The position numbers and the translations under genes were made by a program. Under the pieces are notes generated by a model, which saw only the letters and a program-made list of their open reading frames with translations, did no database searches and was not told the DNA's origin. From Nocardioides houyundeii (GTDB lineage Bacteria > Actinomycetota > Actinomycetes > Propionibacteriales > Nocardioidaceae), in the NCBI RefSeq assembly GCF_002865585.1, contig NZ_CP025581.1, positions 496,001-560,000 on the forward strand: DNA of 64,000 nt, written 5' to 3'. Below are positions 4,349-29,308 of this stretch, piece by piece (positions within the stretch are counted from its first letter, which is position 1; each line of letters starts with the position of its first letter).

Positions 4349-5272
4349 CTAGCAGTCCAGGGCGTCGGCCCGAGGGAGAGCGGACTGCGCGCCGTGGGCC
4401 TGCACCGCGAGCGCGGCTGCCGCGGCGGCCCTCTGCGCCGCGTCGCCTGCCGCCATCCCGCGGATCAAGCCGTCGACCAGTGCGCCGACGAAGGCATCAC
4501 CAGCACCCGTGGTGTCCACCGCCTCGACACCGGGCGGCACCGACCAGGTGGACTCCTGCTCGCCGGCCAGCACCCCACCCGCGGAGCCCAGGGTGATGAC
4601 TGCCAGCCCGCCGACCCGCTCGCGGAGTCGCGCGACCGCCGTGACCGGATCCCACGGCGAGCCCTTGGGGTCGTCTTCTCCGGCGACGACGCGGGCCTCG
4701 TGCTCGTTGACGACCAGCACGTCCACCAGGGCAAGGGTCTCCTGGGCGACGCGTGCAGCAGGGGCTGCGTTGAGCACGAGCAGGTCGGACACCTCGACGG
4801 CCCGGGAGATGGTGTGCGCCACGACGTCGAGGTCCAGTTCGTGCTGGAGCACCACCGCGTCGTACCTCACCCCTGTCGCCCGGGCCTCGGCGAGCGCCTC
4901 GTCCACCTGCTCGCACGTCACCGTGTCATTGGCGCCTCCGTGGATGATGATCGTGTTGTCGGCTGCGTCGTCGACCATCACCAGGGCGATCCCGGTCGAC
5001 CCGTCGGTCACTCGGACGTGCCGGACATCGACGTCTTCCTCCTGCAGAGCGGCCAGGATCATCCTGCCCTCGTCGTCGTCGCCCACGGCTCCGACCATGC
5101 TCACCCGGGCGCCCAGTCGGGCCATCGCGACCGCCTGGTTGTTGCCCTTGCCTCCGGGCAGCCGTGCCAAGGTGCGGGCGCGCGAGGTCTCGCCCTCGCG
5201 TGGGAGGTGCTCAACCCGCACCATGGTGTCGCAGCTGAAGCTGCCGACAACGAGCACGCGTGGTCGGGTCAC
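4349..5272 (-). CDS. PfkB/ribokinase-family sugar or nucleoside kinase
   Basis: A 307-residue carbohydrate kinase. It shows the N-terminal PfkB glycine motif (PGGKGNNQA, about residues 40-48), the Asn-Glu motif VVNEHEARV and the C-terminal signature DTTGAGDAFVGAL with the catalytic Asp. Its position last in an operon with two glycosidases suggests that it phosphorylates the released ribose to ribose 5-phosphate. A nucleoside substrate is an alternative the sequence cannot exclude. The GTG start overlaps the stop of the GntR gene (GTGA), so longer readings into that gene are unlikely. Confidence 0.88.
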   Translation of the reverse strand: MTRPRVLVVGSFSCDTMVRVEHLPREGETSRARTLARLPGGKGNNQAVAMARLGARVSMVGAVGDDDEGRMILAALQEEDVDVRHVRVTDGSTGIALVMVDDAADNTIIIHGGANDTVTCEQVDEALAEARATGVRYDAVVLQHELDLDVVAHTISRAVEVSDLLVLNAAPAARVAQETLALVDVLVVNEHEARVVAGEDDPKGSPWDPVTAVARLRERVGGLAVITLGSAGGVLAGEQESTWSVPPGVEAVDTTGAGDAFVGALVDGLIRGMAAGDAAQRAAAAAALAVQAHGAQSALPRADALDC

Positions 5273-6177
5273 GTGTGCTCCCCGACGAGCGGCGGCAGGC
5301 CCTTGACCTGGGCGAGCAGCTGACTGCCGAAGTTGTCCTCGATCTCCCACTCGACGCCGACCACCTCTACGTTCGCCGGCAGGGCGAGCACGGCCGCGTT
5401 GTTGACCACCACCGCCGTGGCGTCCTCAAGGACGGACGGATCGTGACTGCCGGCCAGGAAGCCGCTGATATCGCCGCTGTAGTACTGGCTGACCAGGGCG
5501 CACATCCGCTGCACCCCCCGCTCGGTGGGGGCGACGGCGAACACGCGACCCGCGGGATCGAGGGTGGCGAGCCGCCGCAGCACCCGCGGAGCCGCGCGCA
5601 CGTTGACCGGCACCAGACGTTCCGGGCGTTCCAGCCGCCCGGACACCTCGGCCAGGTGGAAGTAGGGGACGACCACCACGTCGGCGTCCGCGTCCAGCGG
5701 ACCCTCGCCGGGGTCACCGATCAGTCTGGGTATCACCTCGAGGCCGCTGATCGCCGCCACCCGCTCGGACATGGTGGCCAGGTCGCGGTCGTTGCACTCG
5801 AGGAGCACCACCCTGGGAGTGAGCACCTCGGAGGTGACGACCTCCTCGAGAGCCCTGCGGATCTCGGTGACGGTGATCCCGGACAGGACCGCTCGCTCGA
5901 CGAGCGAGGAGAGCTCGCCAGTCAGCTCCACGGTCCCGAAGACGCGCGGCACGTCGGTCGTTCTCACGAACGTTCCTCGTCTCGGGACCGTGCGCAGGAC
6001 ACCTCGCTCCGCCAGTCGCCGCACAGCACGGTCCACGGTCGAGGGGTTGGACTCAAGCTCACCGGCAAGGGCGCGGCACGAGGGCAACCGGCTGCCCACG
6101 GCGTACACCCCCCGGCTGAGCCGGTCGGTCAACCGCGCCTCGACGTCCTCGACCGATGGAGGCTTCGCCTTGCTCAC
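5269..6177 (-). CDS. GntR-family transcriptional regulator (paralogue 1)
   Basis: A 302-residue regulator with an N-terminal winged helix (about 10-75). It contains LPSCRALAGELESNPSTVDR and the wing motif VPRRGTF. The C-terminal part (about 85-300) is not an FCD, UTRA or aminotransferase domain that I recognise. It carries ECNDRDL, PYFHL and VVVNNAA motifs that recur at matching places in the second GntR protein of this window (26059-26994). It overlaps the dehydrogenase stop by GTGA. It probably senses the imported nucleoside or its base and controls this operon from the intergenic region upstream of the BMP gene. Confidence 0.85.
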   Translation of the reverse strand: MSKAKPPSVEDVEARLTDRLSRGVYAVGSRLPSCRALAGELESNPSTVDRAVRRLAERGVLRTVPRRGTFVRTTDVPRVFGTVELTGELSSLVERAVLSGITVTEIRRALEEVVTSEVLTPRVVLLECNDRDLATMSERVAAISGLEVIPRLIGDPGEGPLDADADVVVVPYFHLAEVSGRLERPERLVPVNVRAAPRVLRRLATLDPAGRVFAVAPTERGVQRMCALVSQYYSGDISGFLAGSHDPSVLEDATAVVVNNAAVLALPANVEVVGVEWEIEDNFGSQLLAQVKGLPPLVGEHT

Positions 6178-7322
6178 GCGTCCACGCTCCTCGTCACCGG
6201 CGTCCGGACCGATCCTAGAGGTGCCCCCGGCAGCACGACCGGCTTCACGACGCGTCCCGAGGCGAGGTCCGCCTCCGCCTCGGCCGCTGCGGTTAGGGGG
6301 TAGGTGGTCACGAGCCGCTCGTAGGGCAGCAGTCCCCGCTCCCACATCCCCAGCAGCATCGGCACGGCGAGCCGGGGCACGGCCCCGCCCTGCGAGAGAT
6401 AGGTGACGCTCCGCCCCACCAGTGCCTCCGCGCGCCAGGGCAGGTCGGTCCCGGCCCCGCCGACCAAGGCCAAGTCGCCGAGCGGTGCCAGCGACGCGAG
6501 GGCGCTGCCCAGCGCCGGACTGGCACCGGAGGTCTCGAGCACCCCGTCCAGCTGCCCCCGCAGCCCGTCGGCCTCGTCATCGAGATGATCGGGGTGGTGC
6601 GCCTCGGTGGCGCCCAGCTCGAGGGCCAGCGCCCGGCGGACGGGATCCGGTTCGACGACGACCACCCGGTCCGCGCCGGCCGCTCGGGCGGCCATCACGG
6701 CGGCCAGTCCCACCGCACCTGCACCGAAGATCCCGATCCGCCGACCCGGACCGGCGCGCAGGTGACCCAGCGCCGCCAGTGCGCCGGTCGGCAGGCTGCA
6801 GCCGAACGGGCCGAGCAGTTCGAGCGGAAGATCGCGGTCGACCACGACCACGCTCCTCGCCGCCACCACTGCGTGCTCGGCCAGGCTGGACTGGCCGAAC
6901 CACTCGGACCCCACGGGCGAGCCGGCGCGGTCCCGCAACGTGGCGGATCCGTCCGGACGGAGTGGGGAGAAGTTGAGAAGGGAGAAGTCGGCGCAGTACG
7001 ACGGTCGACCGGTCCGGCACGGCACGCAGTCGGTGCACCAGGCGTACGACATCACCACGTGGTCCCCCACGCGGACATCGTGGACGTCGGGACCGACGGA
7101 TTCGACCACGCCGGCGCCTTCGTGACCCGTGACCAGAGGCAGCGACGAGGGCGTCCAGGCTCGTGGCAGCAGGTCGGTGTGGCACAGCCCCGTCCCCGCG
7201 ATCCGCACCAGCACCTCGCCCGCGCGCGGAGCGTCGATCTCCAGCTCCTCGAGCCGCAGCGGCTCGCCGGTGACGCGGAGCACGGCGGCGCGCGTCGGCC
7301 GGGAGCGAACCGGGGTCATCAT
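6174..7322 (-). CDS. Zinc-dependent medium-chain alcohol dehydrogenase
   Basis: A 382-residue MDR-family dehydrogenase. Catalytic zinc ligands appear as GLCHTD and TGHEGAG. The structural zinc site is the four-cysteine stretch CTDCVPCRTGRPSYC. The Rossmann fold has GIFGAGAVGLAA. The sequence most resembles NAD-dependent aryl/alkyl alcohol dehydrogenases. Inside a nucleoside operon it could oxidise a hydroxyl on the base side chain or the released sugar; this is inference. The first ATG overlaps the preceding stop (ATGA). Confidence 0.88.
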   Translation of the reverse strand: MMTPVRSRPTRAAVLRVTGEPLRLEELEIDAPRAGEVLVRIAGTGLCHTDLLPRAWTPSSLPLVTGHEGAGVVESVGPDVHDVRVGDHVVMSYAWCTDCVPCRTGRPSYCADFSLLNFSPLRPDGSATLRDRAGSPVGSEWFGQSSLAEHAVVAARSVVVVDRDLPLELLGPFGCSLPTGALAALGHLRAGPGRRIGIFGAGAVGLAAVMAARAAGADRVVVVEPDPVRRALALELGATEAHHPDHLDDEADGLRGQLDGVLETSGASPALGSALASLAPLGDLALVGGAGTDLPWRAEALVGRSVTYLSQGGAVPRLAVPMLLGMWERGLLPYERLVTTYPLTAAAEAEADLASGRVVKPVVLPGAPLGSVRTPVTRSVDA

Positions 7323-8446
7323 GGGCGCGGCACCCTCGGCACGTTCGCGGCGGCCCGGTCCACGGCGGCCTCCTGGTGCGGCAGCAACTCTTGGCCGTAG
7401 CCCTGGATCGCGGCGAGGAACGGGTCGAGCACCCCCGTCCGGGCGCCGCTGAGCTCCTCCAGGATGGCCAGCCCGCAGAACGGGACCACGAACGGGGAGT
7501 AGCCGCCCTCGTGGGCCAGCACGAGTCGGCTGTCGCAGAGTTCCTCGGCCGCCTCGCGGGCGTGCCGGGCGAGCATCCGGAAGCCGTCGGAGTGCAGCAT
7601 CTGGCGGGCCAGCGGGTCCATCCCGTTCCCGTCGAGGCCACTGGCGATCAGGATCAGGTCAGGCCGGAAGCGGGCCAGTGCCGGACGCACCACCCGTTCC
7701 ATCGCGGCGGCGTAGGCACCCGTCCCGGACCCTGGCGGCAACGGCACGTTGAGATTGGCGCCCACCCCGGCGCCGGTGCCGACGACCTCGACCGGCCCGG
7801 ACCCCGGCGGGTAGGCGCCGTCCTGGTGCAAGGAGATGGTCAGCACGGTGTCGTCGGCGGCGAAGATCGACTCGGTCCCGTTCCCGTGGTGCACGTCCCA
7901 GTCGAGGATCGCCACACGAGCGGCGCCACGCCGCTGCGCGTGCCTGGCAGCCACGGCTACGTTGTTGAAGAGGCAGAAGCCCCAGCCGGTCTCCGCCGAC
8001 GCGTGGTGCCCCGGAGGTCGGACGAGCGCGTAGGCGTTCTCGACCTCCCCGTCGAGCACCGCGTCGACCGCGCGAACCACCCCGCCGGCGGCGAGCATCG
8101 CGATCGCGTAGGACTCCCGGCCGAAGGGACTCGAGCCGTCACCGGCGTCGCCCCGGCCGGTGGCCGCCTGGGCCTGCACGGAGGCCCGGTAGTCGGCCGT
8201 GTGGACTGCTTCGACCTGCTCGGGTGTGGCGGGCACCGGGGTGATCGGCACGAGCTCGCGGTCCAGGCCGCAAGCCGCCACCAGGTTGGCGAAACGGCGC
8301 TTGGCGGACGGACCCTCGATGTGCTCCATCGGCTCGATCCACCCGCCGGCCGGAAACGGCCCCGCCCCCGTGCCGGTGTCGTGCCACAGATAGGTCTCGT
8401 GGAAGACCCATCCCGTACGGCGACTGGCCGGCGCCCTCGGGCTCAC
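7319..8446 (-). CDS. Class II HDAC-like / acetylpolyamine-amidohydrolase-type deacylase
   Basis: This 375-residue arginase/deacetylase-fold metallohydrolase has RPPGHHA (active-site His pair), DWDVHHGNGTE (zinc ligands), SGLDGNGMDPL and GGYSP. Bacterial members remove acyl groups from polyamines or other small amides. Next to a nucleoside hydrolase and Qng1-like glycosylase, it may deacylate a modified nucleoside or a catabolic intermediate, but no sequence feature fixes the substrate. It starts with GTG overlapping the upstream stop. Confidence 0.88.
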   Translation of the reverse strand: MSPRAPASRRTGWVFHETYLWHDTGTGAGPFPAGGWIEPMEHIEGPSAKRRFANLVAACGLDRELVPITPVPATPEQVEAVHTADYRASVQAQAATGRGDAGDGSSPFGRESYAIAMLAAGGVVRAVDAVLDGEVENAYALVRPPGHHASAETGWGFCLFNNVAVAARHAQRRGAARVAILDWDVHHGNGTESIFAADDTVLTISLHQDGAYPPGSGPVEVVGTGAGVGANLNVPLPPGSGTGAYAAAMERVVRPALARFRPDLILIASGLDGNGMDPLARQMLHSDGFRMLARHAREAAEELCDSRLVLAHEGGYSPFVVPFCGLAILEELSGARTGVLDPFLAAIQGYGQELLPHQEAAVDRAAANVPRVPRP

Positions 8447-9513
8447 GCCGTCACCCGGCAGGCCAGCTCGGCGAGGACGGTCCGCAGCCGCGCGATGAAC
8501 TTCGGGCCGTCGCCGCTCAGCGCGACGAACGCGTTGACCGGCTTGTCGACGTGTCCACGCCAGTCCGCGACCGTCTCCCCGTCGGTATGGCCACCCCCGA
8601 GGTCGACGTCGACGACAGTGGATCGGACCTCCACCAGGGTCGGGTCCAGTGCCGCGCCCACGACGAACGGGTCGTGCACGTGGGCGCCGTAGAACCCGTC
8701 GTACTCCTCGTGGAACTCGAAGTAGAAGCGGAGGGCGTCGCGCACCAGGTCCAGCACCGGGTTGCCCAGCGGGGCGGCCATCACCTCCTTGTCGGTCCCC
8801 CCGATCGTGCCGATTCCCGCCGCCTCAGCGACCGCGACCAGGTCCCTGGCGTGGAACTGCGAGGTCTCGGTGACATCCAGCCCCATCACCGTGATGGGTG
8901 TCGCGCCGCGCTCGGTCGCTGTGGACCACTGGTGGAAGACGGTGCGCGCCGCCTCAGGATCGACGTGGATGTTCCATTCCACCCGGGGCGCGACGTTGCC
9001 GGCGCCCGTGAAGGTGCCCCCCATCACCCAGACGTCCTTGAGCAGCAGCGGCAGGTTCGGTTCGGCCAGGACGGCGGCGGCGAGGTTGGTCAGCGGCCCC
9101 ATCGTGACCAGAGTGATCTCGCCGGGCCGGGCCCGTGCCTCCTCGAGGAGGAGATTGACCGCCGAACGGCCCGACACCGTGCCGACCGGATCCACCACCG
9201 CGTGGCCCAGGCCGTGCGGGCCGTGGGTCTCCGGGGTGGTGCACAGGGTGCGCGCGATGGGGCCCGCCGCTCCCGCCGCCACTTCGACGTGCCCGGCGCC
9301 CGCCAGTTCAAGCACCCCCAGCGTGTTGCACACCACGTCGTCCACGCCGACGTTGCCGGCCACCGTGGTCACCGCCACCAGATCGACGTCCGGGTGCCCT
9401 GCTGCGTAGAGAAGAGCCAGCATGTCGTCGATGCCGGTGTCCACGTCGAGGATCAGGGACTGCCTACCCGCCTCGCGCCGGGGTGGCGCGACCGAGACCC
9501 TGGGTGACCGCAT
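8443..9513 (-). CDS. Inosine-uridine-type nucleoside N-ribohydrolase
   Basis: A 356-residue IUNH-family protein hydrolysing the N-glycosidic bond of ribonucleosides to base plus ribose. The family's calcium-binding Asp cluster is clear as DVDTGIDD near residue 24, followed by VTTVAGNV and the VTMGPLTNLA segment. The C-terminal part has YDGFYGAHVHDPF, containing the His-Asp of the active site. It lies directly after the queuosine-salvage-like gene, so the operon carries two unrelated nucleoside-cleaving enzymes. The substrate range is unknown. Confidence 0.9.
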   Translation of the reverse strand: MRSPRVSVAPPRREAGRQSLILDVDTGIDDMLALLYAAGHPDVDLVAVTTVAGNVGVDDVVCNTLGVLELAGAGHVEVAAGAAGPIARTLCTTPETHGPHGLGHAVVDPVGTVSGRSAVNLLLEEARARPGEITLVTMGPLTNLAAAVLAEPNLPLLLKDVWVMGGTFTGAGNVAPRVEWNIHVDPEAARTVFHQWSTATERGATPITVMGLDVTETSQFHARDLVAVAEAAGIGTIGGTDKEVMAAPLGNPVLDLVRDALRFYFEFHEEYDGFYGAHVHDPFVVGAALDPTLVEVRSTVVDVDLGGGHTDGETVADWRGHVDKPVNAFVALSGDGPKFIARLRTVLAELACRVTA

Positions 9514-9514: not shown

Positions 9515-10564
9515 TCAGTACCTCGTCGTGACGGTCAGGTGGTGCGGTCGGATGAGGTCGTGGAACCCCGACCAGAGACGGTAGTCGAGCTGCGGGTTCA
9601 CCAGGGCATCGGTGCGTCTGACGTTCAACTCGTCGGTGAGGAGCCCGCAGGCGTAGATGCTCTGTACCCGGATCTCGTGCTCCCAGTCGGAACCGGCGGC
9701 CACGACCACTCCGTTGTCCACGGCCTCCGCGAGCGCTGGGGAGTAGCGCAGCACTCGCATCGCCCGCAGGGCCGCGGGAACGATGTAGTCGGCGAAGATA
9801 GCCAGGGAGTCCAGGTCCTCCAGCTGCACCAGACCGAGCCGCTGCAAGGTCCACACCGCAAGCTGGGCCAGCTTGTCGAAGCGCACCGTGAGCCCGTGGA
9901 CGGTGCCGCTGTCGTCGAAATGGGGGAACTCCCGGACCAGGCGCTCAAGCAGCCCGTGACCGTCGGCGTACACCCGTGGGGGGCAATCGCGGACGAAGGC
10001 GCTGAAGCTGCCACCGTAGGACTCCACCAGCGTGCGGCCCAGGCCCCTGAGCACCTCGACACGCTCGGTCAGCAGCGGAATCGGCCGCGGGCCGTGGAGC
10101 ACTGCGGCCAGCCTCTCCTCGGTGAGTTCGGCGAGCCACTCGCCCGAGAGCACGGGAACGCCCGCGGCATGGGCCTGCAGGAACCGGCGGAACATCGCGT
10201 CGGCATCCACGAGCTCGCGCCCCTCGTGCTCGATCGACCACGGGATCTTCGTCTCGAAGTCGGTGTAGGCGAAGTTGATCGCCACGGTGACCATCGTGAA
10301 GTCGATCTGCTCCTCGAGGGTCGCGAGCTCGGGACGCTCCGGGTCCGGCCCTTCCGCGTTCCCGTCCAGGGGCGCGAACAACTCGAAGCACATCCAGTCG
10401 GCGACCGCGCTGAGCTGGTCGCGGTCCACCTCGACGTCCTGGCACCGGGGACTCGCGAGGGCGGCGCTGCGGAGGACCGCCGCGTCCCATGCGGCGCTGC
10501 GTCGTAGGGGGCCGGTCGCCCCGGTCGGGCCTGGCGAGGGGTTCAGAGAGGTGGTGCTGGGCAT
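9515..10564 (-). CDS. Queuosine salvage protein family (Qng1/DUF2419) nucleoside N-glycosylase
   Basis: A 349-residue homologue of the DUF2419 family, whose eukaryotic member QNG1 releases queuine from queuosine 5'-phosphate. I recognised it by end-to-end similarity to the human protein. Shared segments include the VTVAINFAY-type helix, GGSFSAFV, the IFADYIVP motif (MFADYRLP in human), the SDWEHEIR segment and the LDYRLW ending. The family is sporadic in bacteria. Its ribosome binding site (GAGGAG) lies in the 3' end of the preceding permease gene, three bases before the ATG. I see no tgt or queuosine biosynthesis gene in the window, so salvage for tRNA modification is not the obvious role here. 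Confidence 0.85.
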   Translation of the reverse strand: MPSTTSLNPSPGPTGATGPLRRSAAWDAAVLRSAALASPRCQDVEVDRDQLSAVADWMCFELFAPLDGNAEGPDPERPELATLEEQIDFTMVTVAINFAYTDFETKIPWSIEHEGRELVDADAMFRRFLQAHAAGVPVLSGEWLAELTEERLAAVLHGPRPIPLLTERVEVLRGLGRTLVESYGGSFSAFVRDCPPRVYADGHGLLERLVREFPHFDDSGTVHGLTVRFDKLAQLAVWTLQRLGLVQLEDLDSLAIFADYIVPAALRAMRVLRYSPALAEAVDNGVVVAAGSDWEHEIRVQSIYACGLLTDELNVRRTDALVNPQLDYRLWSGFHDLIRPHHLTVTTRY

Positions 10565-10567: not shown

Positions 10568-11821
10568 CTACTCCTCGGATCTTCGATAGGTGGCACCTAC
10601 GGCGGCGGGCGGCCGCAGGGTCTGGCGGGCCGCGACGAGCACGACCAGGGTGGTGAGGTATGGGGCGACCCCGAGCAGCTCACGGGGCACCTCCGGGCCG
10701 ACCAGGAACCAGACGAGGACCGGGACGCCGAAGGCGACGTTCCAGGTGGCGGTGGTGAGACGGCCCTGGCGGTAGAGGAACAGTGCACGGCCGATCAGGG
10801 CCCCGGCGCCGAGCAGCAGCAGGGCGGTCACCGACCCCGCCTGGCGGGTGCTGAGAGCATCGGTGAAGCCGAACAGAAGGCTGCCGGTGAGCACTCCACC
10901 GGGGGTCCAGTTGCCGAAGACAACCGTGGCGAGACCGATGAAGCCGCGGCCTCCCACCTGGCCCTCGCGGTAGAGCGAGGACGCGGCGACCACCAGGTAG
11001 GCGCCCCCCAGGCCGGCGAGTCCACCGGAGATGGCCTGGGCGGCACAGCGGATGCGGTAGGGCGAGACTCCGAGGGAGTCCGCGGCGGACGGGTTCTCAC
11101 CGCAGGCGGTGACCCGGAGCCCGAACCGGGTCCGCGACAGGATCCACCAGCTCGCGGGTACCAGTAGCAGGGCCAGGACGGTTCCGGCCGAGACCCCGGT
11201 CAGTAGGCCGGTGAGCAGGCGTGCGGCGTCCGCGACCACAGGGACGTCGCTCCGGGCGACCGGACCGAGGAGCAGCTCTGCACCCGGCAAGGAGACCAGT
11301 GGCAGCTGCTCGAGCGTGGGGCTCTGGCTGATGCTCCCTCCGGGCTGCCGGGCGAACGTGACCGAGGAGAGGAAACGGACCACGCCGATGGCGCCCATGT
11401 TGATGACGATCCCGGAGATCGCCTGGTCGACGCCCCAGCCCAGGGTGACGACCGCTTGTAGGAGGCCGCAGAGGGTGCCCCCAACCACCCCTGCGACGAG
11501 GGCAGCCCACGGTCCGTGCGAGAGACCCACCCAGGCGCCGGTCCAGCAGCCCATGATCATCATGCCGTCGAGGCCGATGTTGAGAGTCCCCGATCGTTCT
11601 GCCCAGAGGCCCCCCAGTCCCGCGAGCAGGATGGGGACGGCGAAGCGCAGCGTGGCTGCGGCGATCCCCGCGGAGGTGAGGTCAGGGGCGTCGGCAAAGG
11701 TGGCGACCGCGCTGAGTGCTGCGACGGCGAGGACCACCAGGACCCACCGCGGCCGACGAGGGCGGGGTTCCCCACCGTCGGGTGCGCGGCGGTCCGCCCG
11801 GAGGAGCGTCAGGAGGCTCAT
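10568..11821 (-). CDS. BMP-type nucleoside ABC transporter permease (NupQ/YufQ-like)
   Basis: A 417-residue membrane protein of the branched-chain/ribose-type permease superfamily with about nine or ten hydrophobic segments. The family segments SGTLNIGLDGMMIMG and GENPSAADSLG are visible. It pairs with the neighbouring permease to form the transmembrane path. The start overlaps that gene's stop (ATGA). With the lipoprotein and double ATPase it forms a complete nucleoside importer of the NupNOPQ/YufNOPQ type. Confidence 0.9.
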   Translation of the reverse strand: MSLLTLLRADRRAPDGGEPRPRRPRWVLVVLAVAALSAVATFADAPDLTSAGIAAATLRFAVPILLAGLGGLWAERSGTLNIGLDGMMIMGCWTGAWVGLSHGPWAALVAGVVGGTLCGLLQAVVTLGWGVDQAISGIVINMGAIGVVRFLSSVTFARQPGGSISQSPTLEQLPLVSLPGAELLLGPVARSDVPVVADAARLLTGLLTGVSAGTVLALLLVPASWWILSRTRFGLRVTACGENPSAADSLGVSPYRIRCAAQAISGGLAGLGGAYLVVAASSLYREGQVGGRGFIGLATVVFGNWTPGGVLTGSLLFGFTDALSTRQAGSVTALLLLGAGALIGRALFLYRQGRLTTATWNVAFGVPVLVWFLVGPEVPRELLGVAPYLTTLVVLVAARQTLRPPAAVGATYRRSEE

Positions 11822-15594: not shown

Positions 15595-15839
15595 GGGGTG
15601 CCCTCTTCACGGGATCGGGGGACCGTCGATCGGCCCCGGTGAGCAGTAGAGCGACACCCCGGCGTGCCGCTCTGTCTGCTGTCTTTGACAAGAGTTAGAC
15701 AGTTCCCCGCTTGCCGCAAGAGAGTCGAACGATTGACACGAGGGGTTTACCGGGGCGTCACAGCGGGCGGCTCACGGAGACAGGACCGGGAGGGCCGACG
15801 CCGCGGCCTCTGCCCCCTTCGACCGTGCAGCCCGCTGCC
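15595..15839 (-). promoter_or_regulatory. Promoter/operator region of the nucleoside operon
   Basis: This 245-base gap before the BMP gene is the only sizeable break in the nucleoside operon. It holds an inverted repeat at 15679-15702 (arms CTGTCT and AGACAG, 12 bases apart). The repeat overlaps a possible minus-strand promoter (TTGCGG, then TAACTC about 16 bases on). A GntR operator here is plausible but untested. Confidence 0.45.
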
Positions 15840-21508: not shown

Positions 21509-22413
21509 GACGCGGCTCCGTGGGCCGGCGCCGGGACCTGGGCGGCGTACCAGTCGTGGATCTCCCCGGAGGTGACCGCCCGCACGTCGCCCTCGGCCGC
21601 GGCGGCGCAGATCGCGGCGACGATCTGCTCCACCTCGCCGATCCGGTGCGCGGTGCCCATGATGTGGGGGTGCAGCCCGACCGGCATCACCAGCGGGTTG
21701 TCGCTCGCCTCGCGGCGGTGCCGGACCAGGGTGCGCAGGGTGCGGTCGGCCAGAGCGCCGTCGGCCTGGAGACCCACCTGGTAGGTGGTGACGTCGTTGA
21801 GGGTCAGCGTGTAGGGCAGTCCCAGGACCGGTCCGGCGGCGCTGGCCAGCCAGAGGGGCCGGTCGTCGATCATCCAGTCGTGGTTGAAGACCAGCCCGGC
21901 CCGCGCCAGGTGCGCGAGCGAGTCGTCGCTCTGGTTCATCCCCGGGCTCAGCCACCCCCGGGGCGCGCCGAACCGGTCGGCGATCCGGGACACGGCCTCG
22001 GCGACCACGGCCGCCTCGTCGTCGTAGGACTGGATGCTCTGCTGCCGCACCCCGTGCGCGACCACCTCCCACCCCAGGTCGGCGACCAGGTCGGCGACCT
22101 GCGGGTAGTGGTCGATCACGTCGGCGTTGAGCGCCACGGTGACCGCCCGGCCCAGCGGCGCCAGGGCCTCGGCGAGCCGGGGGAGCCCGGCCCGCAGCCC
22201 GTAGAGCACCCACGAGTGGTTGGCCACGTCCGGGACCACCGTCAGGCCGTGCGGTGCCGGCAGCGCGGCCCGGGGCATCGGCCGGTCCAGCGTCCAGTGC
22301 TCGAGGTTGAGCACCACGTTGACCAGCACCGACGCGCCGGCGAGCGGGATGAGCCGCGGACCATCGCCGGAGAGCGCGAACGGCGCCGGCGCCCGGCGCT
22401 CGGCCGGGCTCAT
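21505..22413 (-). CDS. Polysaccharide-deacetylase-fold hydrolase, second PuuE-like paralogue
   Basis: A 302-residue NodB-fold protein with VNVVLNLEHW at the N-terminus, the His of VVAHGVRQQS, a GWLSPGMNQS segment and PVGLHPHIMG near the C-terminus. It is more distant from PuuE than the gene at 17887-18804, but the layout is the same. It is flanked by the two amidase genes, overlapping each by four bases. It probably cleaves a C-N bond in a cyclic or acyl amide; the substrate is unknown. Confidence 0.75.
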   Translation of the reverse strand: MSPAERRAPAPFALSGDGPRLIPLAGASVLVNVVLNLEHWTLDRPMPRAALPAPHGLTVVPDVANHSWVLYGLRAGLPRLAEALAPLGRAVTVALNADVIDHYPQVADLVADLGWEVVAHGVRQQSIQSYDDEAAVVAEAVSRIADRFGAPRGWLSPGMNQSDDSLAHLARAGLVFNHDWMIDDRPLWLASAAGPVLGLPYTLTLNDVTTYQVGLQADGALADRTLRTLVRHRREASDNPLVMPVGLHPHIMGTAHRIGEVEQIVAAICAAAAEGDVRAVTSGEIHDWYAAQVPAPAHGAAS

Positions 22414-23612
22414 GACGGCACCGCCGCCGCCAGGTCGAGCAGCAGCTCGTCGTCCCCGGGCAGCCCCAGCAACGAGACGCCCACGGGGGCCGAGGTGCCG
22501 GTCCCGTAGTCGGTCACCCGGCCCGCGGGCAGCGTCAGCTGCGGGGCGCCGGCCAACGAGGCGGGCACCACCAGCGGCAGGTTGCGGTCCCGGTAGTCCA
22601 TCAGCGACGCGTGGCTGCTGGTGCGCAGCGGCGCCGCCGCGATCGTGGTGGGCAGCACCGCCACCTCCTCCAGGAGCAGGGACTCCAGGCGCTGGACCAG
22701 CCGGGCGCGGCCGGACTCCGCGGCCCGCACCTCGGCGTCGGTGACCGTCCCGGCCACCCGGATCCGGTCTGCGATGCCCTCGCCGAGCGTGGGGTCGGCC
22801 TCGCGCAGCCAGGCGCCGTTGGTGTGCCACAGCTGCCGGCTCATCAGGGGCCAGAAGACCGAGAGCAGCTCCGGGGCGCGCATCCCCTCGGGCAGCGGGT
22901 CGTCCAGCAGCGGCAGCCCCACCAGCTGCAGCCCGGTCGCCTCGGCCAGCCGGACCGCGGTGCGCATGGTGGCGGTCGCCACCTCCGGGGCAGCCAGGTC
23001 GAGCAGGTCGGTGAGCAGCACCAGCCGCCGTACGCCGCGGGGCGCACGGGGGGCGGCGGCGAGCGCGCCGAAGGCCGCACCCACGGTGGCCACCTCGCGT
23101 GCCAGCAGCCCGACGGTGTCGAAGCGCGGGGCCATCGGACGCAGTCCGGCGGTGTCGATGCGGCCGTGGGTGGGACGCAGGCCGACGAGTCCGCAGAAGG
23201 CGCCCGGCACCCGGATCGAGCCGCCGGTGTCGGTGCCGAGACCGAGGTCGGCCAGCCCGGCCGCCACCGCGCTCGCCGACCCGCTCGAGGAGCCGCCCGG
23301 CACCCGGTCCGGTGCGGCCGGGTTGGGCGGGGTGCCGTAGTGGGTGTTGGCGCCGAACATGCCCATGGCCAGCTCGTCGGTGGCGGTCTTGCCCACCACC
23401 GTGGCGCCGGCCCGGAGCAGCCGGGCGACGGCCCCGGCGTGGCTGCTCGCCGGGACGCCGGCGGCCAGCGTGGGGTTGCCGGCGGCGGTCACCCGCCCGG
23501 CAACGTCGAAGAGGTCCTTGACCGCGACGGTGACCCCGTCCAGCGGGCCGGCACCCGTGGGGCCCACCACCAGCTCGCCGTCGGGGGCCAGCATCCTCGG
23601 GGGCAGGCTCAT
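22410..23612 (-). CDS. Amidase-signature family hydrolase
   Basis: A 400-residue amidase with the canonical motifs AVKDLFDVAG, PGGSSSGSA and GTDTGGSIRVPGA, giving an intact Ser-cisSer-Lys triad. It differs from the other amidase in the operon by having the common GTDTGGS nucleophile loop, so the two probably act on different amides. It overlaps the HpaB-type gene stop by ATGA. Confidence 0.9.
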   Translation of the reverse strand: MSLPPRMLAPDGELVVGPTGAGPLDGVTVAVKDLFDVAGRVTAAGNPTLAAGVPASSHAGAVARLLRAGATVVGKTATDELAMGMFGANTHYGTPPNPAAPDRVPGGSSSGSASAVAAGLADLGLGTDTGGSIRVPGAFCGLVGLRPTHGRIDTAGLRPMAPRFDTVGLLAREVATVGAAFGALAAAPRAPRGVRRLVLLTDLLDLAAPEVATATMRTAVRLAEATGLQLVGLPLLDDPLPEGMRAPELLSVFWPLMSRQLWHTNGAWLREADPTLGEGIADRIRVAGTVTDAEVRAAESGRARLVQRLESLLLEEVAVLPTTIAAAPLRTSSHASLMDYRDRNLPLVVPASLAGAPQLTLPAGRVTDYGTGTSAPVGVSLLGLPGDDELLLDLAAAVPS

Positions 23613-25075
23613 CGCTGGGTCGCGTCGTAGGAGCCGAGGAACTCCTCCACCAGCGCCTCCGCCTCCGCGAACGGGTAGTGCCGGTGGGCGTACATCTTCA
23701 CCACCGGGGCGGCGCCGGAGTAGAACCGCTCGTACTGCACGTGCCGGCCCGCGAACTCCGAGCCGACCAGGTCCCAGGCCAGCTTGAACAGCTTGACGCG
23801 CTCCACCATCGGCAGGTGGTCCGAGCCCATCAGCAGGTCCATCGAGGCGATCGACTCGGGGTCGTCGAGGTCCAGCACCGAGCTGGGCACCTGGATCACC
23901 CCGCCGCCCACCAGCTCACCGAGCATCCGCACCGCCCGGGGGTAGACCTCGGTCTGCATGCCGAGCGCGGCGTAGAGGTACTTCCCGGCCGGCCGGATGA
24001 CGCCCTGGTCGTCGGCGGTGGCGAACGCGTGCGCGGACTCGGTCAGCGACTCCGAGACCGTCTGGATGGTCGCCAGGTCGGCGAGCTGCATCTTGATGGC
24101 CAGGTCAGAGTCGCGGCCGTTGGCCCGGGCGACCTTGGCGGCCACCCCGGTCAGGAAGCGGAGCTTGGCGGTGAGCCGGATGATCGACTGCAGGTTGCCG
24201 ATCTGGTGGGCGGCGGTGCCGAAGAACTGGCGGTTGACCACCTCGACGCTGCCGGCGGCGAACACCCGGTCCCAGGGCACCAGCACCCGGTCGAAGGCGA
24301 CCATGGCGTCGGACTCGTCGAGCCGGTTGCTCAGCGGGTAGTCGAACCGCGACCCGCTGGTGGCGTAGGGCCGGCGACAGATCAGGCGCAGGCCCGGGGC
24401 ATTGACCGGCACCACGAAGGAGAGCGCCTTCTCCGGCTCGGTCGGCGCCAGCGGGCGGACGCTGGTCACGAAGATCTCGTCGGCCACCGCGGCGCCGGTG
24501 CCGAGCATCTGCGCGCCCGAGACCACGATCCCCTCGGACGTCTTCTCCACCAGGTGCACCGGGGTGACCCGGCTGGTCGGGTCGTTGGGGTTGGCCTGCG
24601 GCGGGACGATCGAGTTGGTGATCCACAGCCCGCCCGCGGCGGCGTAGTCGTGGAAGGCGACCACCGTCGCGCCGAGCTGGTGCTCGTCGGTGTCGAAGAC
24701 GCCCGGGTTGCCGGCGAAGCCGGCCAGCAGGCCGGAGACGTGGTCGGGGCCGCGGCCGATGAAGCCGTGCGACATCCGGTTCCACTCCTCCAGCGCGACC
24801 TTGCGCAGGTCGTGCTGGGCGCGGGTGCGCGGGACGGTGAACAGCGCCAGCCGCCCGGTCTCCGGGTCGACCAGGGGTGACCCGGGCGCGCCTGCGGCGT
24901 CGTACATCGCGGCCATGGTCTCCGCGACGCCGCGGAAGGCGGGGTGGCCGGCGACGTCGGTGACCTGCTCGCCGTCGACTCGCACGTCGCGGCCATCCGA
25001 GAGGGCGGCGAGGTAGTCGGCGCCGGTGCGCAACCGGGTGCCGGTGAGGTCCGGGGTAGGGGAGGTGATGGTCAT
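23609..25075 (-). CDS. HpaB-type FADH2-dependent monooxygenase
   Basis: This 488-residue member of the 4-hydroxyphenylacetate 3-hydroxylase (HpaB) family belongs to a class of two-component flavin oxygenases with an acyl-CoA-dehydrogenase-like fold. Recognisable segments are TGADYLAAL, GFIGRGPDHV, the flavin-loop region GTGAAVADEIFVTS and the C-terminal GSDHLPMVERVKLFKLAWD. Members hydroxylate phenols and some N-heteroaromatics. Reduced flavin would come from the HpaC-type gene at the operon's end. It follows the upstream gene after an 18-base gap with its own GAGGAG site. Confidence 0.9.
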   Translation of the reverse strand: MTITSPTPDLTGTRLRTGADYLAALSDGRDVRVDGEQVTDVAGHPAFRGVAETMAAMYDAAGAPGSPLVDPETGRLALFTVPRTRAQHDLRKVALEEWNRMSHGFIGRGPDHVSGLLAGFAGNPGVFDTDEHQLGATVVAFHDYAAAGGLWITNSIVPPQANPNDPTSRVTPVHLVEKTSEGIVVSGAQMLGTGAAVADEIFVTSVRPLAPTEPEKALSFVVPVNAPGLRLICRRPYATSGSRFDYPLSNRLDESDAMVAFDRVLVPWDRVFAAGSVEVVNRQFFGTAAHQIGNLQSIIRLTAKLRFLTGVAAKVARANGRDSDLAIKMQLADLATIQTVSESLTESAHAFATADDQGVIRPAGKYLYAALGMQTEVYPRAVRMLGELVGGGVIQVPSSVLDLDDPESIASMDLLMGSDHLPMVERVKLFKLAWDLVGSEFAGRHVQYERFYSGAAPVVKMYAHRHYPFAEAEALVEEFLGSYDATQR

Positions 25076-25093
25076 CTGCGGCTCCTCAGCTCG

Positions 25094-26062
25094 TCAGCAC
25101 GCGGTGGTCGCCGGGACCCCGGAAGAGGTCCTCGGGGTGAAGGGGGTGGTGATCAGCCCGTCGGCCAGGCAGTAGTCGATGGCGCGGGCGAGCATCGGGG
25201 AGTTGGCGCGGAGCCCGCTGGCCCAGAAGTCCGCACCCAGCAGCCGCTCGGCGTCCATCAGGTCGTCGAGCTGCCAGGGCAGCAGGGTGTCGAGCGCGGC
25301 CGCGTCGGCCAGGTCGGACCGGGCCAGATCGATGGACTGCGTGAACGCCTGGTGCAACGCCCACGGCAGCTCGGGGTGCTGCTCGGCCAGGGCTCGCTTG
25401 ACGACCAGCACGTGCATGGCCGGGAAGATCCCGGTGCTGCGGTAGTAGTCGCGCTCCGCCTGGCGTGCGTCGGGGAGCAGCCGGCGTACGCCGCCGTCGG
25501 GCCAGGTGGAGGGCGCGCGGGCGGTCATCAGCGCGTCGATCTCGCCGGCTGCCAGGAGCTCGGCCAGCCCGGCGTCGGTGCGGTGCTCGAAGCGGAAGCC
25601 GGGCGGGTAGAACTGCGGGTGCTCGTCGCCGCTGCGCGGACCCTCCAGCCCGCCGATGACGTACGTCGGCGCGTGCCGGTCCAGCCCGAAGTGGTCGTGC
25701 AGGATGCCGCGCAGCCACACGCCCGCGGCCATGTCGAAGACCGAGATGCCGATCCGTCGGCCGGCCAGGTCCGCAGGCGTCTGCACGTCGCTCTTCTCGC
25801 TGGCGAAGAGCGAGGAGAGCCGGAAGTGCCGGGAGGGGAAGACCGGGATGGCGAGGTAGGGCCGGTCGGGCCGTTCCAGGCTGCGCAGGTAGGTGGCCAG
25901 CGGGAACTCGGCGACGTCGAAGGTGTGCTGGGCGAGCTGGTGGTTGAACAGCTTCTGGACGCCCATCAGGGTGATGTCGGCCTCGACGCCGGGGATGGCG
26001 ACGCGTCCGGCGGCCAGGGGCCGGGTGCGGGCGGTGTCGGAGAGTCCGAGGGTGAGCCTCAT
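25094..26062 (-). CDS. 4,5-dihydroxyphthalate-decarboxylase-like protein
   Basis: A 322-residue protein with a type-2 periplasmic-binding-protein fold but no signal peptide, so it is probably cytoplasmic. The start LTLGLSDTARTRPLAAGRV and the FDVAEFPLATYL segment match 4,5-dihydroxyphthalate decarboxylases. That family is often misnamed as a substrate-binding protein. Decarboxylation of a hydroxylated aromatic carboxylate would fit the neighbouring oxygenases. A transport role is less likely without export signal, permease or ATPase genes beside it. Confidence 0.75.
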   Translation of the reverse strand: MRLTLGLSDTARTRPLAAGRVAIPGVEADITLMGVQKLFNHQLAQHTFDVAEFPLATYLRSLERPDRPYLAIPVFPSRHFRLSSLFASEKSDVQTPADLAGRRIGISVFDMAAGVWLRGILHDHFGLDRHAPTYVIGGLEGPRSGDEHPQFYPPGFRFEHRTDAGLAELLAAGEIDALMTARAPSTWPDGGVRRLLPDARQAERDYYRSTGIFPAMHVLVVKRALAEQHPELPWALHQAFTQSIDLARSDLADAAALDTLLPWQLDDLMDAERLLGADFWASGLRANSPMLARAIDYCLADGLITTPFTPRTSSGVPATTAC

Positions 26063-26994
26063 GGGCGTGCCTTCTTCCGGTCGATGGTGCCGTCGATGCG
26101 GCCCTGCAGCTCGGCGGCGAAGCGGGCGTCGAGCTCCCACTCGATGGAGATCAGCTGGGCGATGCCCTGCTCGACCTCGGCGGGGATCCCGGCGGCGTTG
26201 TTGACCACCACCACCGGCTCGCCGACCAGCAGGGCCGGATCCTCGACGTCGGTGGCGAGACCGTCGATCTGGCCGGGGAAGTACTGCCCGACCAGCGACT
26301 TCATCCAGTCCACGCCGCGGGGGTGCGGGGCCACCACGACCAGCCGGTCCAGGTCCCGCAGGGCGATCAGCCGGCGGAGCGCCGAGGGCGCGGCCACCAG
26401 GTTGAGGTCGAGCACCCGGTCGAGGTCGCGGATCGCCCCGGCGACGTCGTTGAGGTGGAAGATCGGGACCGCGACGGCGTCGAACTCCTCGTCGAGCACC
26501 CGGTCGCCGATCTCGCAGAGCAGCACCGGCTGCACCTCGACGTCGCTGGCCTGCTGCACCGCCGCGGTGACCTTGCGCAGGTCCCGCTCGTTGCACTCCA
26601 CCACCGCGATCCGCGGCATCGCGTCGACGCGGTCCAGGCTGCGCTCCACCAGCTGGCGCAGCTCGGCGGCGGACACCCCGAGGCGGCGGGCACGCTGCAG
26701 CAGCTCCTCCAGGTGCCCGGTGACCACCTGCGCGGCGTCGACCGGGGCCTCGGTCTGCTCCAGCACGAAGGTGCCGCGGCGCGGCACCGTGCGCACCCGG
26801 CCGCCGGCGGCGAGCCGGCCGATCGCGCGGTCCACGGTGGAGGAGTTGGAGCCGAGCTCCTCGGCCAGCGCCCGGCACGACGGCAGCTTGGAGCCGGCCG
26901 GGTAGGCGCCGGCCAGCACCCGGTCGAGCAGCACCCGGTGCAGGTCGTCCACGGTCGGGGCCAGCTCGAAGCCGGTGACCAGCGGGGCGCTCAC
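26059..26994 (-). CDS. GntR-family transcriptional regulator (paralogue 2)
   Basis: A 311-residue regulator with a winged helix (LPSCRALAEELGSNSSTVDR, then VPRRGTF). Its C-terminal domain is of the same unnamed type as the GntR protein at 5269-6177: ECNERDL, PIFHL, VVVNNAA and EWEL occur in the same order. It probably regulates this catabolic operon in response to a chemically related ligand. The GTG start overlaps the amidohydrolase stop. Confidence 0.86.
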   Translation of the reverse strand: MSAPLVTGFELAPTVDDLHRVLLDRVLAGAYPAGSKLPSCRALAEELGSNSSTVDRAIGRLAAGGRVRTVPRRGTFVLEQTEAPVDAAQVVTGHLEELLQRARRLGVSAAELRQLVERSLDRVDAMPRIAVVECNERDLRKVTAAVQQASDVEVQPVLLCEIGDRVLDEEFDAVAVPIFHLNDVAGAIRDLDRVLDLNLVAAPSALRRLIALRDLDRLVVVAPHPRGVDWMKSLVGQYFPGQIDGLATDVEDPALLVGEPVVVVNNAAGIPAEVEQGIAQLISIEWELDARFAAELQGRIDGTIDRKKARP

Positions 26995-28409
26995 GAGACT
27001 CCTGCCTCGGCGCGCGCGGAGACGTGGGGGTCCGTCCCCGGGCGCGGCTGCTCGGCCAGTGCGGAGAGGTGGCCCAACCCGGCGCGGGCCACTAGCTCGG
27101 CCGTCACCGGTCGGGACTCCCGCGCCACCTCCAGCGGGTCCACGTTCACCACCTCGAAGTCGGCGACGCTGAGCCGGCCGTCGACCCAGACCTCCTTGAC
27201 CTCCCGGGACCCGGCGACGAACACCACCGCCTGGTAGGGGTCGTGCACCGAGGCCAGGGTGGGGCCGGTGCCGTCGAGGACCACCACGTCGGCGAGCTTG
27301 CCCACCTCCAGGGAGCCGATCCGGTCCTCCATCCGCAGCGCGCGGGCGCCGCCGATGGTGGCGATCTCGAACGCCTCCCGGGCGGTCATGGCGGTGGCCT
27401 GCTGGTCGCGGACCCGGGCCAGCATCGCCCCGGTCTTGATGGCCTGGAGGAAGTCCTGGGCGTCGTTGGAGGCGGCTCCGTCGACGCCGAAGCCGACGTC
27501 GATGCCGAGCTGGCGCATCTCGGCCACCGGGGCGATCCCGCTCGCCAGGATCCCGTTGGCCAGCGGGTTGTGGGCCACGCCGACCCGGTGCTCGGCCATC
27601 AGGGCGCGGTCGTCGCGGTCCACCCAGACGCAGTGCGCGGCCAGGGTCGGTGCGGCGAAGAGTCCTTCGTGGGCACAGTGCTCGACGGTGGTGCGGCCGT
27701 GGGCGGTCCGCATCGCGGTGACCTCCTCGCGCACCTCCTGCAGGTGGACGTGGACGCCGTGACCACCGTCGATGGCGTAGCCGATGCTGCGGGCGAACAT
27801 CTCCTCGCTCTGCCCCGGCACGGCGCCGATGCCCACTCGGAAGGTGGCGAGCCGGCTGGCGGCCGCGGCCTCCCGCAGGGCCTCGTGCTCGGCGAACTGG
27901 GCCGCGATGTCGCGCCCGCCGCGGTCGCCGGCCCCGAAGGAGACGACGCCGCGCAGCCCGAGCTGGTCCAGGGCGTGCACCACCGCGGGGGTGACCGGGC
28001 CCTCGGGACGCGGGTCGGTGACGAACATGTCGTTGGCGGTGGTGATGCCGCTGCGCAGCATCTGGATCCCCGCGACCAGGGTGCCGAGCCGGGCGACCCG
28101 GGCGTCGGTGTGCGGCTTGACCTGCTCGATCAGCGCGTGCAGCCACTCGAAGAGGGTGAAGTGGCTGGCGATCCCGGTGAGCAGCCCCTCGGAGAAGTGG
28201 CCGTGGGTGTTGACGAAGCCCGGCAGCACCAGGTCGTGGGCGGAGCCCCGCACGTCGGCGTCGGGGTGGGCGGCTCGCAGGTCGGTCCAGCGGCCGACCG
28301 CCACGATCTCGTTGCCGCGGATCGCGACCGCGCCGTCGCGCACCGGCTCGGGCGCCATCACCCAGGCGCCGCGCAGCAGGGTGACGCGCTCCCCGGGGGC
28401 GGCGCTCAC
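26991..28409 (-). CDS. Deaminase-type amidohydrolase (TrzN/SAH deaminase-like)
   Basis: A 472-residue metal-dependent aminohydrolase with NTHGHFSEG (HxH), VHVHLQE, the His of AAHCVWVD and the Asp of GFGVDGAASND. It is in the same broad subgroup as the operon's other amidohydrolase (16352-17890) but clearly diverged, so the two probably deaminate different intermediates. The GTG start overlaps the nitrilase-like stop. Confidence 0.87.
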   Translation of the reverse strand: MSAAPGERVTLLRGAWVMAPEPVRDGAVAIRGNEIVAVGRWTDLRAAHPDADVRGSAHDLVLPGFVNTHGHFSEGLLTGIASHFTLFEWLHALIEQVKPHTDARVARLGTLVAGIQMLRSGITTANDMFVTDPRPEGPVTPAVVHALDQLGLRGVVSFGAGDRGGRDIAAQFAEHEALREAAAASRLATFRVGIGAVPGQSEEMFARSIGYAIDGGHGVHVHLQEVREEVTAMRTAHGRTTVEHCAHEGLFAAPTLAAHCVWVDRDDRALMAEHRVGVAHNPLANGILASGIAPVAEMRQLGIDVGFGVDGAASNDAQDFLQAIKTGAMLARVRDQQATAMTAREAFEIATIGGARALRMEDRIGSLEVGKLADVVVLDGTGPTLASVHDPYQAVVFVAGSREVKEVWVDGRLSVADFEVVNVDPLEVARESRPVTAELVARAGLGHLSALAEQPRPGTDPHVSARAEAGVS

Positions 28410-29308
28410 GCGGGCCCGCCGTTGGCGTAGTCGTAGGCGTCGGCCTGGGGGGCGGCCAGCTCGGCGTACAGCTCGGGGCGACGGGCCCGCAGCAGCCCGG
28501 GGATGGAGTCGAAGGTCTTGGGCTCGACCATCGAGTCGTCGTTGTCGCGGAGCCAGCGCAGCCGCGCCAGGTCCAGGTCGGCGCAGACCAGCTCGCGGCG
28601 GCCGGCGTGCACCAGGGGGTGCTCGGGACCGGTGATCATCGCCGCGCCCTGCTCCTCGCCCCAGAGGTTGTTGGTGAGCGCGACGTAGCAGACGTTCTCG
28701 ATCGCCCGAGCCTGGTTGATCACCTGCCAGTTGCGGGTCAGGCTGGTGAAGCCGCCGCCGGCGGGGGAGAGGATCACCTCGGCGCCGCGCAGCGCCACGA
28801 TCCGGGCGACCTCGGGGGTCCACATCTCCGAGCAGACCACGATGCCCAGGCGCAGCCCGTCGACCTCGAAGAGGCCGAACACCTCGCCCGGCGAGGTGAT
28901 GAAGCCGTCCTCGGTCGCCGGGATGGTGGCGGGGTGGGTGCGCTCGTAGCGCAGCACCGTCTCCCCGGTCCGGCCCACGACGTAGACCACGAGCCGGAAG
29001 AGCCCGTCCGGGCACTCCTCGGTGCGGCTCCACACCACGTTCAGCCCGCCGTCCTTCGCGGCCTGGGCCATCGCGGGACCGGCGTCGTAGAAGGCGTCAC
29101 CGGCGCGGACCGGGCCGGGGCTGAACTCCGGGAAGAGCACTAGGTCGGCGTCCTCGGCGGCGGCCTGCGCGACCAGCCCGACCGCGTGGTCGACGTTCGG
29201 GCTGCCGTCCTCGCCGGCGATCCGCCGGGGCTGGGCGATCGCCAGGCGGTACGTCGTACGGGCCGGTGCGTCGTCCGGCCGGACGGCGGCGGTGGGAGTC
29301 GTGGTCAT
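28406..29308 (-). CDS. Carbon-nitrogen hydrolase (nitrilase superfamily), catalytic Lys position altered
   Basis: A 300-residue nitrilase-fold hydrolase and first gene of the catabolic operon. The catalytic Glu is in LFPEFSPG and the Cys in VVCSEMW. Where the family has R-K-x-H with the catalytic Lys, this protein reads YERTHP, so Lys appears to be Arg. Relatives cleave N-carbamoyl compounds or amides such as beta-ureidopropionate. Either the enzyme uses an unusual triad or has another role. The ATG is followed by a flexible, Thr/Ala-rich leader of about 20 residues. Confidence 0.83.
   Translation of the reverse strand: MTTTPTAAVRPDDAPARTTYRLAIAQPRRIAGEDGSPNVDHAVGLVAQAAAEDADLVLFPEFSPGPVRAGDAFYDAGPAMAQAAKDGGLNVVWSRTEECPDGLFRLVVYVVGRTGETVLRYERTHPATIPATEDGFITSPGEVFGLFEVDGLRLGIVVCSEMWTPEVARIVALRGAEVILSPAGGGFTSLTRNWQVINQARAIENVCYVALTNNLWGEEQGAAMITGPEHPLVHAGRRELVCADLDLARLRWLRDNDDSMVEPKTFDSIPGLLRARRPELYAELAAPQADAYDYANGGPA

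Follow-up and report, generated by a model that had tools for sequence, protein, structure and literature searches.

A three-operon regulon of Nocardioides houyundeii predicted to import and degrade 7-deazaguanine compounds

The question raised by the locus described here is which compound is taken up, hydrolyzed and opened by the products of two abutting operons of the soil bacterium Nocardioides houyundeii. Both are located in a 64,000-nucleotide stretch, henceforth referred to as the window, that corresponds to positions 496001-560000 of the complete genome (3,840,802 bases; contig NZ_CP025581.1; genome label G000). Gene calls placed 22 minus-strand genes in a nucleoside import and hydrolysis operon (op1, 10 genes, 15594 to 4349) and a ring catabolism operon of exactly 12 genes (op2, 29308 to 15840), with the same boundaries as in a preliminary description made from the sequence alone. 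Gene coordinates are those of the longest reading frames, with provisional starts, and family assignments are based on the gene calls and on Pfam and NCBIfam scans. Together with op3, a third operon that lies beyond the window, op1 and op2 are proposed, at a probability of about 0.62, to form one regulon that imports and degrades 7-deazaguanine compounds, most likely queuosine and queuine from tRNA turnover.

The operons are connected by a common promoter motif. The op2 operator, CTGTCCCCCTGTCCC-N6-TGTAACA, is found at 29444..29471 on the minus strand, and its architecture is the same in all four op2 copies, those of G000 and of three relatives in the genus (G375, G175 and G359, the last a Nocardioides metagenome-assembled genome). 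The motif common to the four op2 promoters, CTGTCCCYYTGTCCC-N6-TGTWACA, is mainly a direct repeat, and a search for perfect palindromes common to the promoters gave nothing informative. A diverged form of the motif was present in all three op1 promoters in one register by eye, at 15756..15783 (minus strand) in G000 and in the same register in G359 and G375. A degenerate pattern matched four sites in the whole G000 genome (upstream of op1, upstream of op2, at 474492 and at 2888327), and the reversed control matched 0. The site at 474492 leads into op3; the site at 2888327 lies among housekeeping genes, named by inspection, and was set aside as a probable chance match. With at most 2 mismatches allowed, the full operator occurred in 4 of 215 genus genomes, exactly the four that carry op2. 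All 7 sites had 0 mismatches, 4 of them preceding op2 and 3 preceding op3, with 0 among the matches listed for the reversed control.

A 28-base weight matrix was built from those 7 sites, and 631,456 positions were scored, comprising the fetched stretches and the window. Twelve positions scored at least 5.2, including the 7 training sites; the others were the op3 promoter of G359 (16.6), a reverse-strand position in the op2 promoter of G375 (14.7) and the three op1 sites (5.2 to 8.6). A first matrix of 15 bases, trained on the four op2 sites, also found the op1 sites but was rejected, other positions scoring equal or higher; the regulon sites are better separated by the 28-base pattern and matrix. 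The motif is predicted to act as an operator shared by op1 (in diverged form), op2 and op3. The preliminary description had linked the operons through their paralogous regulators, GntR1 of op1 (5269..6345, minus strand, PF00392) and GntR2 of op2 (26059..26994, minus strand, PF00392). The likeness is real (43% identity across 293 aa) and GntR2 is kept in all four op2 copies, but in the other copies the gntR1 query found nothing except gntR2. Since GntR1 thus lacks conservation, the paralogy is the weaker part of the evidence and was rejected as the main link; the promoter motif and synteny were used instead.

Op3 was found by tracing the op1/op2 promoter motif through the genome. It occupies contig positions 474,636-485,414, with 10.6 kb between its end and the window, and encodes, in order, an ABC ATPase, a permease, a binding protein, a DUF5591 protein, an aldehyde dehydrogenase, a class III aminotransferase, amidohydrolase C, an FAD oxidoreductase and a methyltransferase. 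The transporter is of the NMT1 type, and the G375 copy of amidohydrolase C is 41% identical to amidohydrolase B of op2. All nine genes were found in the same order in G000, G359, G375 and G175. The G000 op3 operator (L024 6493-6520) overlaps the 3' end of a WYL-domain regulator frame (5573-6550) just upstream.

The distribution of the three operons is consistent with a joint function. Among the 215 genus genomes, an HpaB orthologue, used as a marker of op2, was detected in four (G000, G359, G375 and G175), the DUF5591 protein in exactly the same four, and Qng1, the queuosine hydrolase homologue of op1, in three of them (G000, G359 and G375). The corresponding hypergeometric probabilities, 2.4e-6 for Qng1 within the hpaB set and 1.2e-8 for identity of the DUF5591 and hpaB sets, are naive values that ignore kinship within the genus. 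Across the four genomes, 11 of the 12 genes of op2 keep one order, and the twelfth, a flavin reductase gene, belongs to the op2 copies of G000, G375 and G359. The op1 order from bmp to hdac is kept in all three copies, G375 having one extra gene. Op1 adjoins op2 in G000 and G375; in G359 the two lie on separate contigs, and inter-operon distances vary. In G175, op2, the divergent AbrB-type gene beside it and the HDAC gene are present. The extra G375 gene (DUF1989, PF09347, 30.7 bits; L018 8033-8602) stands between iunh and hdac, is not in G000 or G359, and belongs to a family that we take to be associated with urea carboxylase.

Comparison of Qng1 neighborhoods had been suggested in the preliminary description as a check on the linkage of the two operons, and the linkage was borne out: every one of the three Qng1-bearing genus genomes has op2, contrary to the refuting case named there, in which the operons would never be found together elsewhere. 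It may extend beyond the genus, the Qng1 and HpaB marker proteins of a Microbacterium being assigned the same longest-contig size. The HpaB proteins form a clade of their own at a threshold of at least 60% identity, the next proteins being at 51%. Four of 21 Qng1-clade clusters (the protein of G000 itself left out) share a longest-contig size with an HpaB-clade cluster, namely 250514 (Nocardioides sp. cx-169), 421890 (Microbacterium sp. NPDC076911), 59783 and 42980; the last three sizes recur for DUF5591 proteins, and the other 17 clusters, compared by reading, share none. In the wider order sample (n=293), Qng1 was found in three genomes (G000, G133 and G158) and HpaB, at E 1e-100, in two (G000 and G175).

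Two protein families, Qng1 and DUF5591, would each point to a 7-deazaguanine substrate, as judged from their homologies. Qng1 (9515..10564, minus strand) belongs to the queuosine(-5'-monophosphate) hydrolase family (DUF2419). Its PF10343 match of 147 bits passes the cut-off of 25 bits and spans profile positions 8-264 of 285, and PDB entries 7uk3 and 7u07 were matched at E 5e-27. By alignment, Lys199 and Asp231 of S. thermophilus Qng1, the positions altered in PDB variants 7u5a (Lys199) and 7ulc (Asp231), correspond to Lys231 and Asp259 in G000, and the pair is kept in all three op1 copies.

The DUF5591 region (PF17884) is presumably the domain of archaeosine synthase (ArcS), and PC-x3-KPY-x2-S-x2-H is taken by us to be an ArcS motif. 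The family was found in 3 of 14 control genomes, all archaeal (M. jannaschii, H. volcanii and M. acetivorans). Of 120 homologues listed, 35 were aligned; all 35 contain the motif, as do the Rhizobium homologue described below and A. fulgidus AF0587, and all 35 match PF17884 at E 0.001, DUF5591 being the only domain found in each by Pfam. The G175 protein scored 28.3 bits with its frame neighbors included and the Rhizobium protein 34.5 bits, relative to a Pfam cut-off of 26. In the order sample of 293 genomes, the profile picked out G175 alone and overlooked G000, the direct protein query being more sensitive. In ArcS, the same polypeptide also carries TGT-like and PUA domains, whereas the op3 protein stands alone at ~350 aa, with no TGT-like or PUA domain detected, in an operon with catabolic enzymes.

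The preliminary description had called op1 a salvage operon, a designation that is not upheld. TGT (PF01702) was absent from the complete G000 genome and from G359, G375 and G175, and was positive in 14 of 14 controls. Five of the 215 genus genomes gave a TGT match, one of them clear (G377, 1.8e-121) and four weak and partial, two of these just above the cut-off; none is among the four genomes with op2. Break-down fits better than salvage because G000 lacks TGT. The available excerpts of a study of queuine salvage (PMC11130926) describe Qng1 and QueK, the latter assigned to IPR023186, as queuine-releasing enzymes for salvage in other bacteria, include a figure legend that marks species without bTGT, and propose no catabolic role for either enzyme. 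That op1 salvages queuine for tRNA beside an unrelated op2 has this precedent in its favor, and is very improbable here, being already contradicted by the lack of TGT in G000 and its three relatives and by the common promoter motif and conserved co-occurrence of the operons. The known salvage systems share their nucleoside hydrolase families with op1 and release queuine from queuosine or queuosine-5'-monophosphate; here, in contrast, the hydrolases belong to a regulon with ring-opening enzymes, and the importer is of the Bmp type rather than the known QPTR or QueT. The QueK family and the IUNH family of the op1 nucleoside hydrolase are, we assume, identical. The clear G377 match (C153:3748-4926), the only convincing TGT in the genus sample, comes from a genome that is 84% complete and is possibly contamination.

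Much of the gene set recurs in another phylum. On plasmid CP021373.1 of Rhizobium sp. ACO-34A, an HpaB homologue (37% identity) is followed ~7.5 kb downstream by a DUF5591 homologue (42%), in a cluster that also contains homologues of amidase 2 (43%), PuuE-like hydrolase 1 (56%), amidohydrolase A (43%), the flavin reductase (30%), the FAD monooxygenase (48%) and the decarboxylase-like protein (58%). The same stretch encodes another deaminase-type amidohydrolase (28-31%), an aminotransferase (27%), an aldehyde dehydrogenase (32%), an NMT1-type ABC transporter (ATPase 45%) and an unannotated HDAC homologue in two frames (45-56%). Since much of op2 and op3 occurs with the HDAC gene in this one stretch, they look like one core pathway to which op1 would be an optional nucleoside front end. 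The Rhizobium cluster also contains an arylmalonate-decarboxylase/hydantoin-racemase-like gene (PF17645; L044 17724-18452), a possible sign of a hydantoin-like intermediate. The plasmid search gave no Qng1, and its best HpaB matches were <60% identical. Three other plasmid neighborhoods, around HpaB in Arthrobacter and Roseateles and around an FAD monooxygenase in Mesorhizobium, were without most of the set; the Arthrobacter and Roseateles neighborhoods pair HpaB with a flavin reductase, and that of Roseateles also contains an amidase.

The op2 genes, all on the minus strand and joined by 4-base overlaps at 10 of 11 junctions, were assigned to families by the Pfam and NCBIfam scans and a match to PDB 9jp7. 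The operon begins with a CN-hydrolase of the nitrilase fold (28406..29308; PF00795, 93.6 bits) and amidohydrolase B of the TRZ/ATZ/guanine-deaminase type (26991..28409; PF01979, 195 bits; the NCBIfam matches listed are all below their cut-offs). After GntR2 follow a 4,5-dihydroxyphthalate-decarboxylase-like protein (25094..26062), placed in its family by the solved member 9jp7 (E 3.9e-49) with its activity assigned by sequence, the HpaB-type flavin monooxygenase, oxygenase component (23609..25075; PF11794/PF03241), and amidase 2 (22410..23612; PF01425, 216 bits). The second half consists of PuuE-like hydrolase 2 (21505..22413; TIGR03212, 66.2 bits; without Pfam match), amidase 1 (20207..21508; PF01425, 190 bits), an FAD/NAD(P) monooxygenase-like protein (18801..20210; PF13738), PuuE-like hydrolase 1 (17887..18804; TIGR03212, 320.9 bits; PDB 3cl6 PuuE, E 1.8e-75), the deaminase-type amidohydrolase A (16352..17890; PF01979, 135 bits) and the flavin reductase (15840..16355; PF01613, 114 bits). 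The flavin reductase is the likely partner of HpaB, oxygenase and reductase domains occurring in one operon in G000, as in an HpaB/HpaC system, and not in the G175 copy. In the CN-hydrolase stretch RYERTHP, an Arg, the same in all four copies, occupies what we take to be the position of the catalytic Lys of nitrilases.

Op2 could also be read as ordinary purine, hydantoin or pyrimidine catabolism, as its PuuE-like proteins, its amidohydrolases resembling 8-oxoguanine deaminase and the hydantoin-racemase-like gene of the Rhizobium cluster might suggest. This is hardly credible: neither PuuE-like protein reaches the curated cut-off for PuuE allantoinase (TIGR03212, 424.6 bits), op2 is confined to 4 of 215 genus genomes, and no xanthine dehydrogenase or urate oxidase was seen among the scanned genes of op1 to op3, the rest of the genome not having been searched for them. 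Purine ring catabolism proceeds through guanine deaminase, urate oxidation, PuuE allantoinase and ureide amidases and resembles the proposed route in outline chemistry and in several families. Here, by contrast, oxidation would be carried out by HpaB with its reductase and by the FAD monooxygenase, and a C7 side-chain module and a decarboxylase would be added.

The regulon is proposed to act as follows, queuosine or queuine being the likeliest substrate; the substrate, the order of steps and every single reaction are what we infer from gene content. The nucleoside would be imported by the op1 ABC transporter, composed of a Bmp/PnrA-type nucleoside-binding lipoprotein (14542..15594; PF02608, 197 bits; kept in G375 and G359), an ATPase (13020..14540; PF00005; 72-74% identity to the G375 and G359 copies) and permeases B (11818..13023; PF02653) and A (10568..11821; PF02653), all encoded on the minus strand upstream of qng1. 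The base could then be freed by the IUNH nucleoside hydrolase (8443..9513, minus strand; PF01156, 280 bits) and, after phosphorylation, by Qng1, and free base might enter through the op3 NMT1-type transporter. The DUF5591 protein may act at C7. The aminotransferase and aldehyde dehydrogenase would convert the C7 side-chain amino carbon to an aldehyde and then to a carboxylate, and this 7-carboxylate would be removed by the decarboxylase-like enzyme of op2. Removal of the 2-amino group is assigned to the deaminase-type amidohydrolases and hydroxylation of the pyrrole part to HpaB with the flavin reductase and to the FAD monooxygenase; the PuuE-like enzymes, amidases and CN-hydrolase would open and hydrolyze the ring, in the manner of urate and allantoin catabolism. 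A chemical precedent, set beside op2 by description only, is the two-component flavin hydroxylation of a pyrrole ring by a Rhodococcus pyrrole-2-carboxylate monooxygenase, as presented in the available excerpts of PMC6165268.

A more far-reaching version of this proposal is held tentatively, at slightly less than even odds: the regulon would be the first pathway for complete queuosine and queuine break-down, with a core shared across phyla and an optional Qng1/IUNH front end. The core would comprise the DUF5591 protein, aminotransferase, aldehyde dehydrogenase, HDAC-like protein, decarboxylase, deaminases, HpaB and FAD oxygenases, a PuuE-like hydrolase and an amidase. The DUF5591 protein, a stand-alone relative of the ArcS domain, would process the C7 side chain once the base is free, and in bacteria without TGT the function of Qng1 would be nutrition rather than tRNA modification.

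Several observations weigh against a regulon degrading 7-deazaguanine compounds. At 23.0 bits, the DUF5591 protein of G000 stays below the Pfam cut-off, its equation with the ArcS domain is presumptive, and a Foldseek search with its predicted fold returned nothing at E 0.001 or better, an uninformative result. The op1 operator sites are diverged, and the 15-base matrix gave 16.3 at position 4379 of the G359 C41 stretch versus 9.1 at op1 of G000; because scores elsewhere equal or exceed those of op1, its motif link is the weakest of the three operons. Co-occurrence is not fully independent evidence, since all four genomes belong to one genus. In G175, no Qng1 was found, no op1 transporter was seen in the stretch read, and no flavin reductase was found beside op2 or op3; Qng1 is not obligatory, since G175 has op2 and op3 without it. 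G133 and G158 have Qng1, no hpaB, and none of the other 21 window genes in the stretches around it. The Rhizobium cluster has no match for Qng1, IUNH, Bmp, the CN-hydrolase or the op3 FAD oxidoreductase and methyltransferase, and PuuE-like hydrolase 2 and amidase 1 have no match of their own there. Finally, the HDAC-like protein, the alcohol dehydrogenase of op1 and the methyltransferase are without a clear place in the pathway.

Some of these observations bear on the identity of the substrate. Qng1 and the DUF5591 protein might act on another 7-deazapurine, such as preQ0, preQ1, archaeosine base, the 7-deazaguanines of modified phage or bacterial DNA, or an antibiotic such as toyocamycin. Archaeosine synthase acts on preQ0, and the core need not start from queuosine, because G175 has op2 and op3 but no Qng1 and the Rhizobium plasmid has a large part of both operons. 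The available excerpts of PMC11130926 add that a UPS transporter encoded beside an acidobacterial qng1 moves preQ0 and preQ1, not queuosine. Such a substrate is unlikely, if still of appreciable weight: Qng1 is known to release queuine, and three of the four op2-bearing genus genomes have it. Recruitment of the Qng1 and DUF5591 homologues to act on a modified nucleobase or nitrogen heterocycle of an unrelated kind, the 7-deazaguanine link being merely ancestral, is improbable. The HpaB, amidase, PuuE-like and amidohydrolase families are broad, and relatives of HpaB and the FAD monooxygenase stand in other neighborhoods on the three plasmids checked; against this, two distinct families, each with a 7-deazaguanine connection, share their regulation and strictly co-occur, and key residues are conserved. 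For a regulon degrading 7-deazaguanine compounds, the idea of 7-deazapurine catabolism put forward in the preliminary description is strengthened by the promoter motif and the op3 DUF5591 protein; its exact substrate is still conjectural.

The novelty lies in the pathway, the enzyme superfamilies being already known. Queuine is a micronutrient that eukaryotes obtain from bacteria, and we know of no described route for its break-down; no queuine or 7-deazaguanine catabolic pathway was found among the open-licence PMC papers listed by the literature searches. If the proposal is true, a dedicated catabolic regulon could explain Qng1 in some bacteria without TGT, DUF5591 proteins would gain a first role outside archaea, enzymes that open the 7-deazaguanine ring would be at hand, and the soil ecology of 7-deazapurines would have a new sink.

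The remaining op1 genes, in order after iunh on the minus strand, encode the HDAC-like amidohydrolase (7319..8446; PF00850, 270 bits), a Zn-alcohol dehydrogenase (6174..7322; PF08240/PF00107), GntR1 and a ribokinase-like PfkB-family kinase (4349..5350; PF00294, 202 bits; TIGR02152, 257 bits, below the cut-off of 299.65). The HDAC gene lies near op2 in G175. Metal-binding motifs look intact in the alignment portions inspected for the HDAC-like protein and both op2 amidohydrolases. No match of >100 bits to GntR1, the alcohol dehydrogenase or PfkB of the window belonged to the G375 and G359 op1 copies; the G375 PfkB is just 35% alike, and the alcohol dehydrogenase was seen only in the op1 copy of G000. 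A PADLOC scan of 3 proteins gave no match.

The CN-hydrolase gene is adjoined by a divergent AbrB-type membrane gene (PF05145; 29531..30695, plus strand), which lies in one frame in G375, G175 and G359. Because the G000 copy matches these intact relatives in three successive frames, it is broken or misassembled in G000. The op3 aldehyde dehydrogenase gene (L024 10653-12076) also shifts frame near 11906 in G000, unlike its G375 relative, so that two broken frames, attributable to sequencing error or decay, lie beside or within one regulon.

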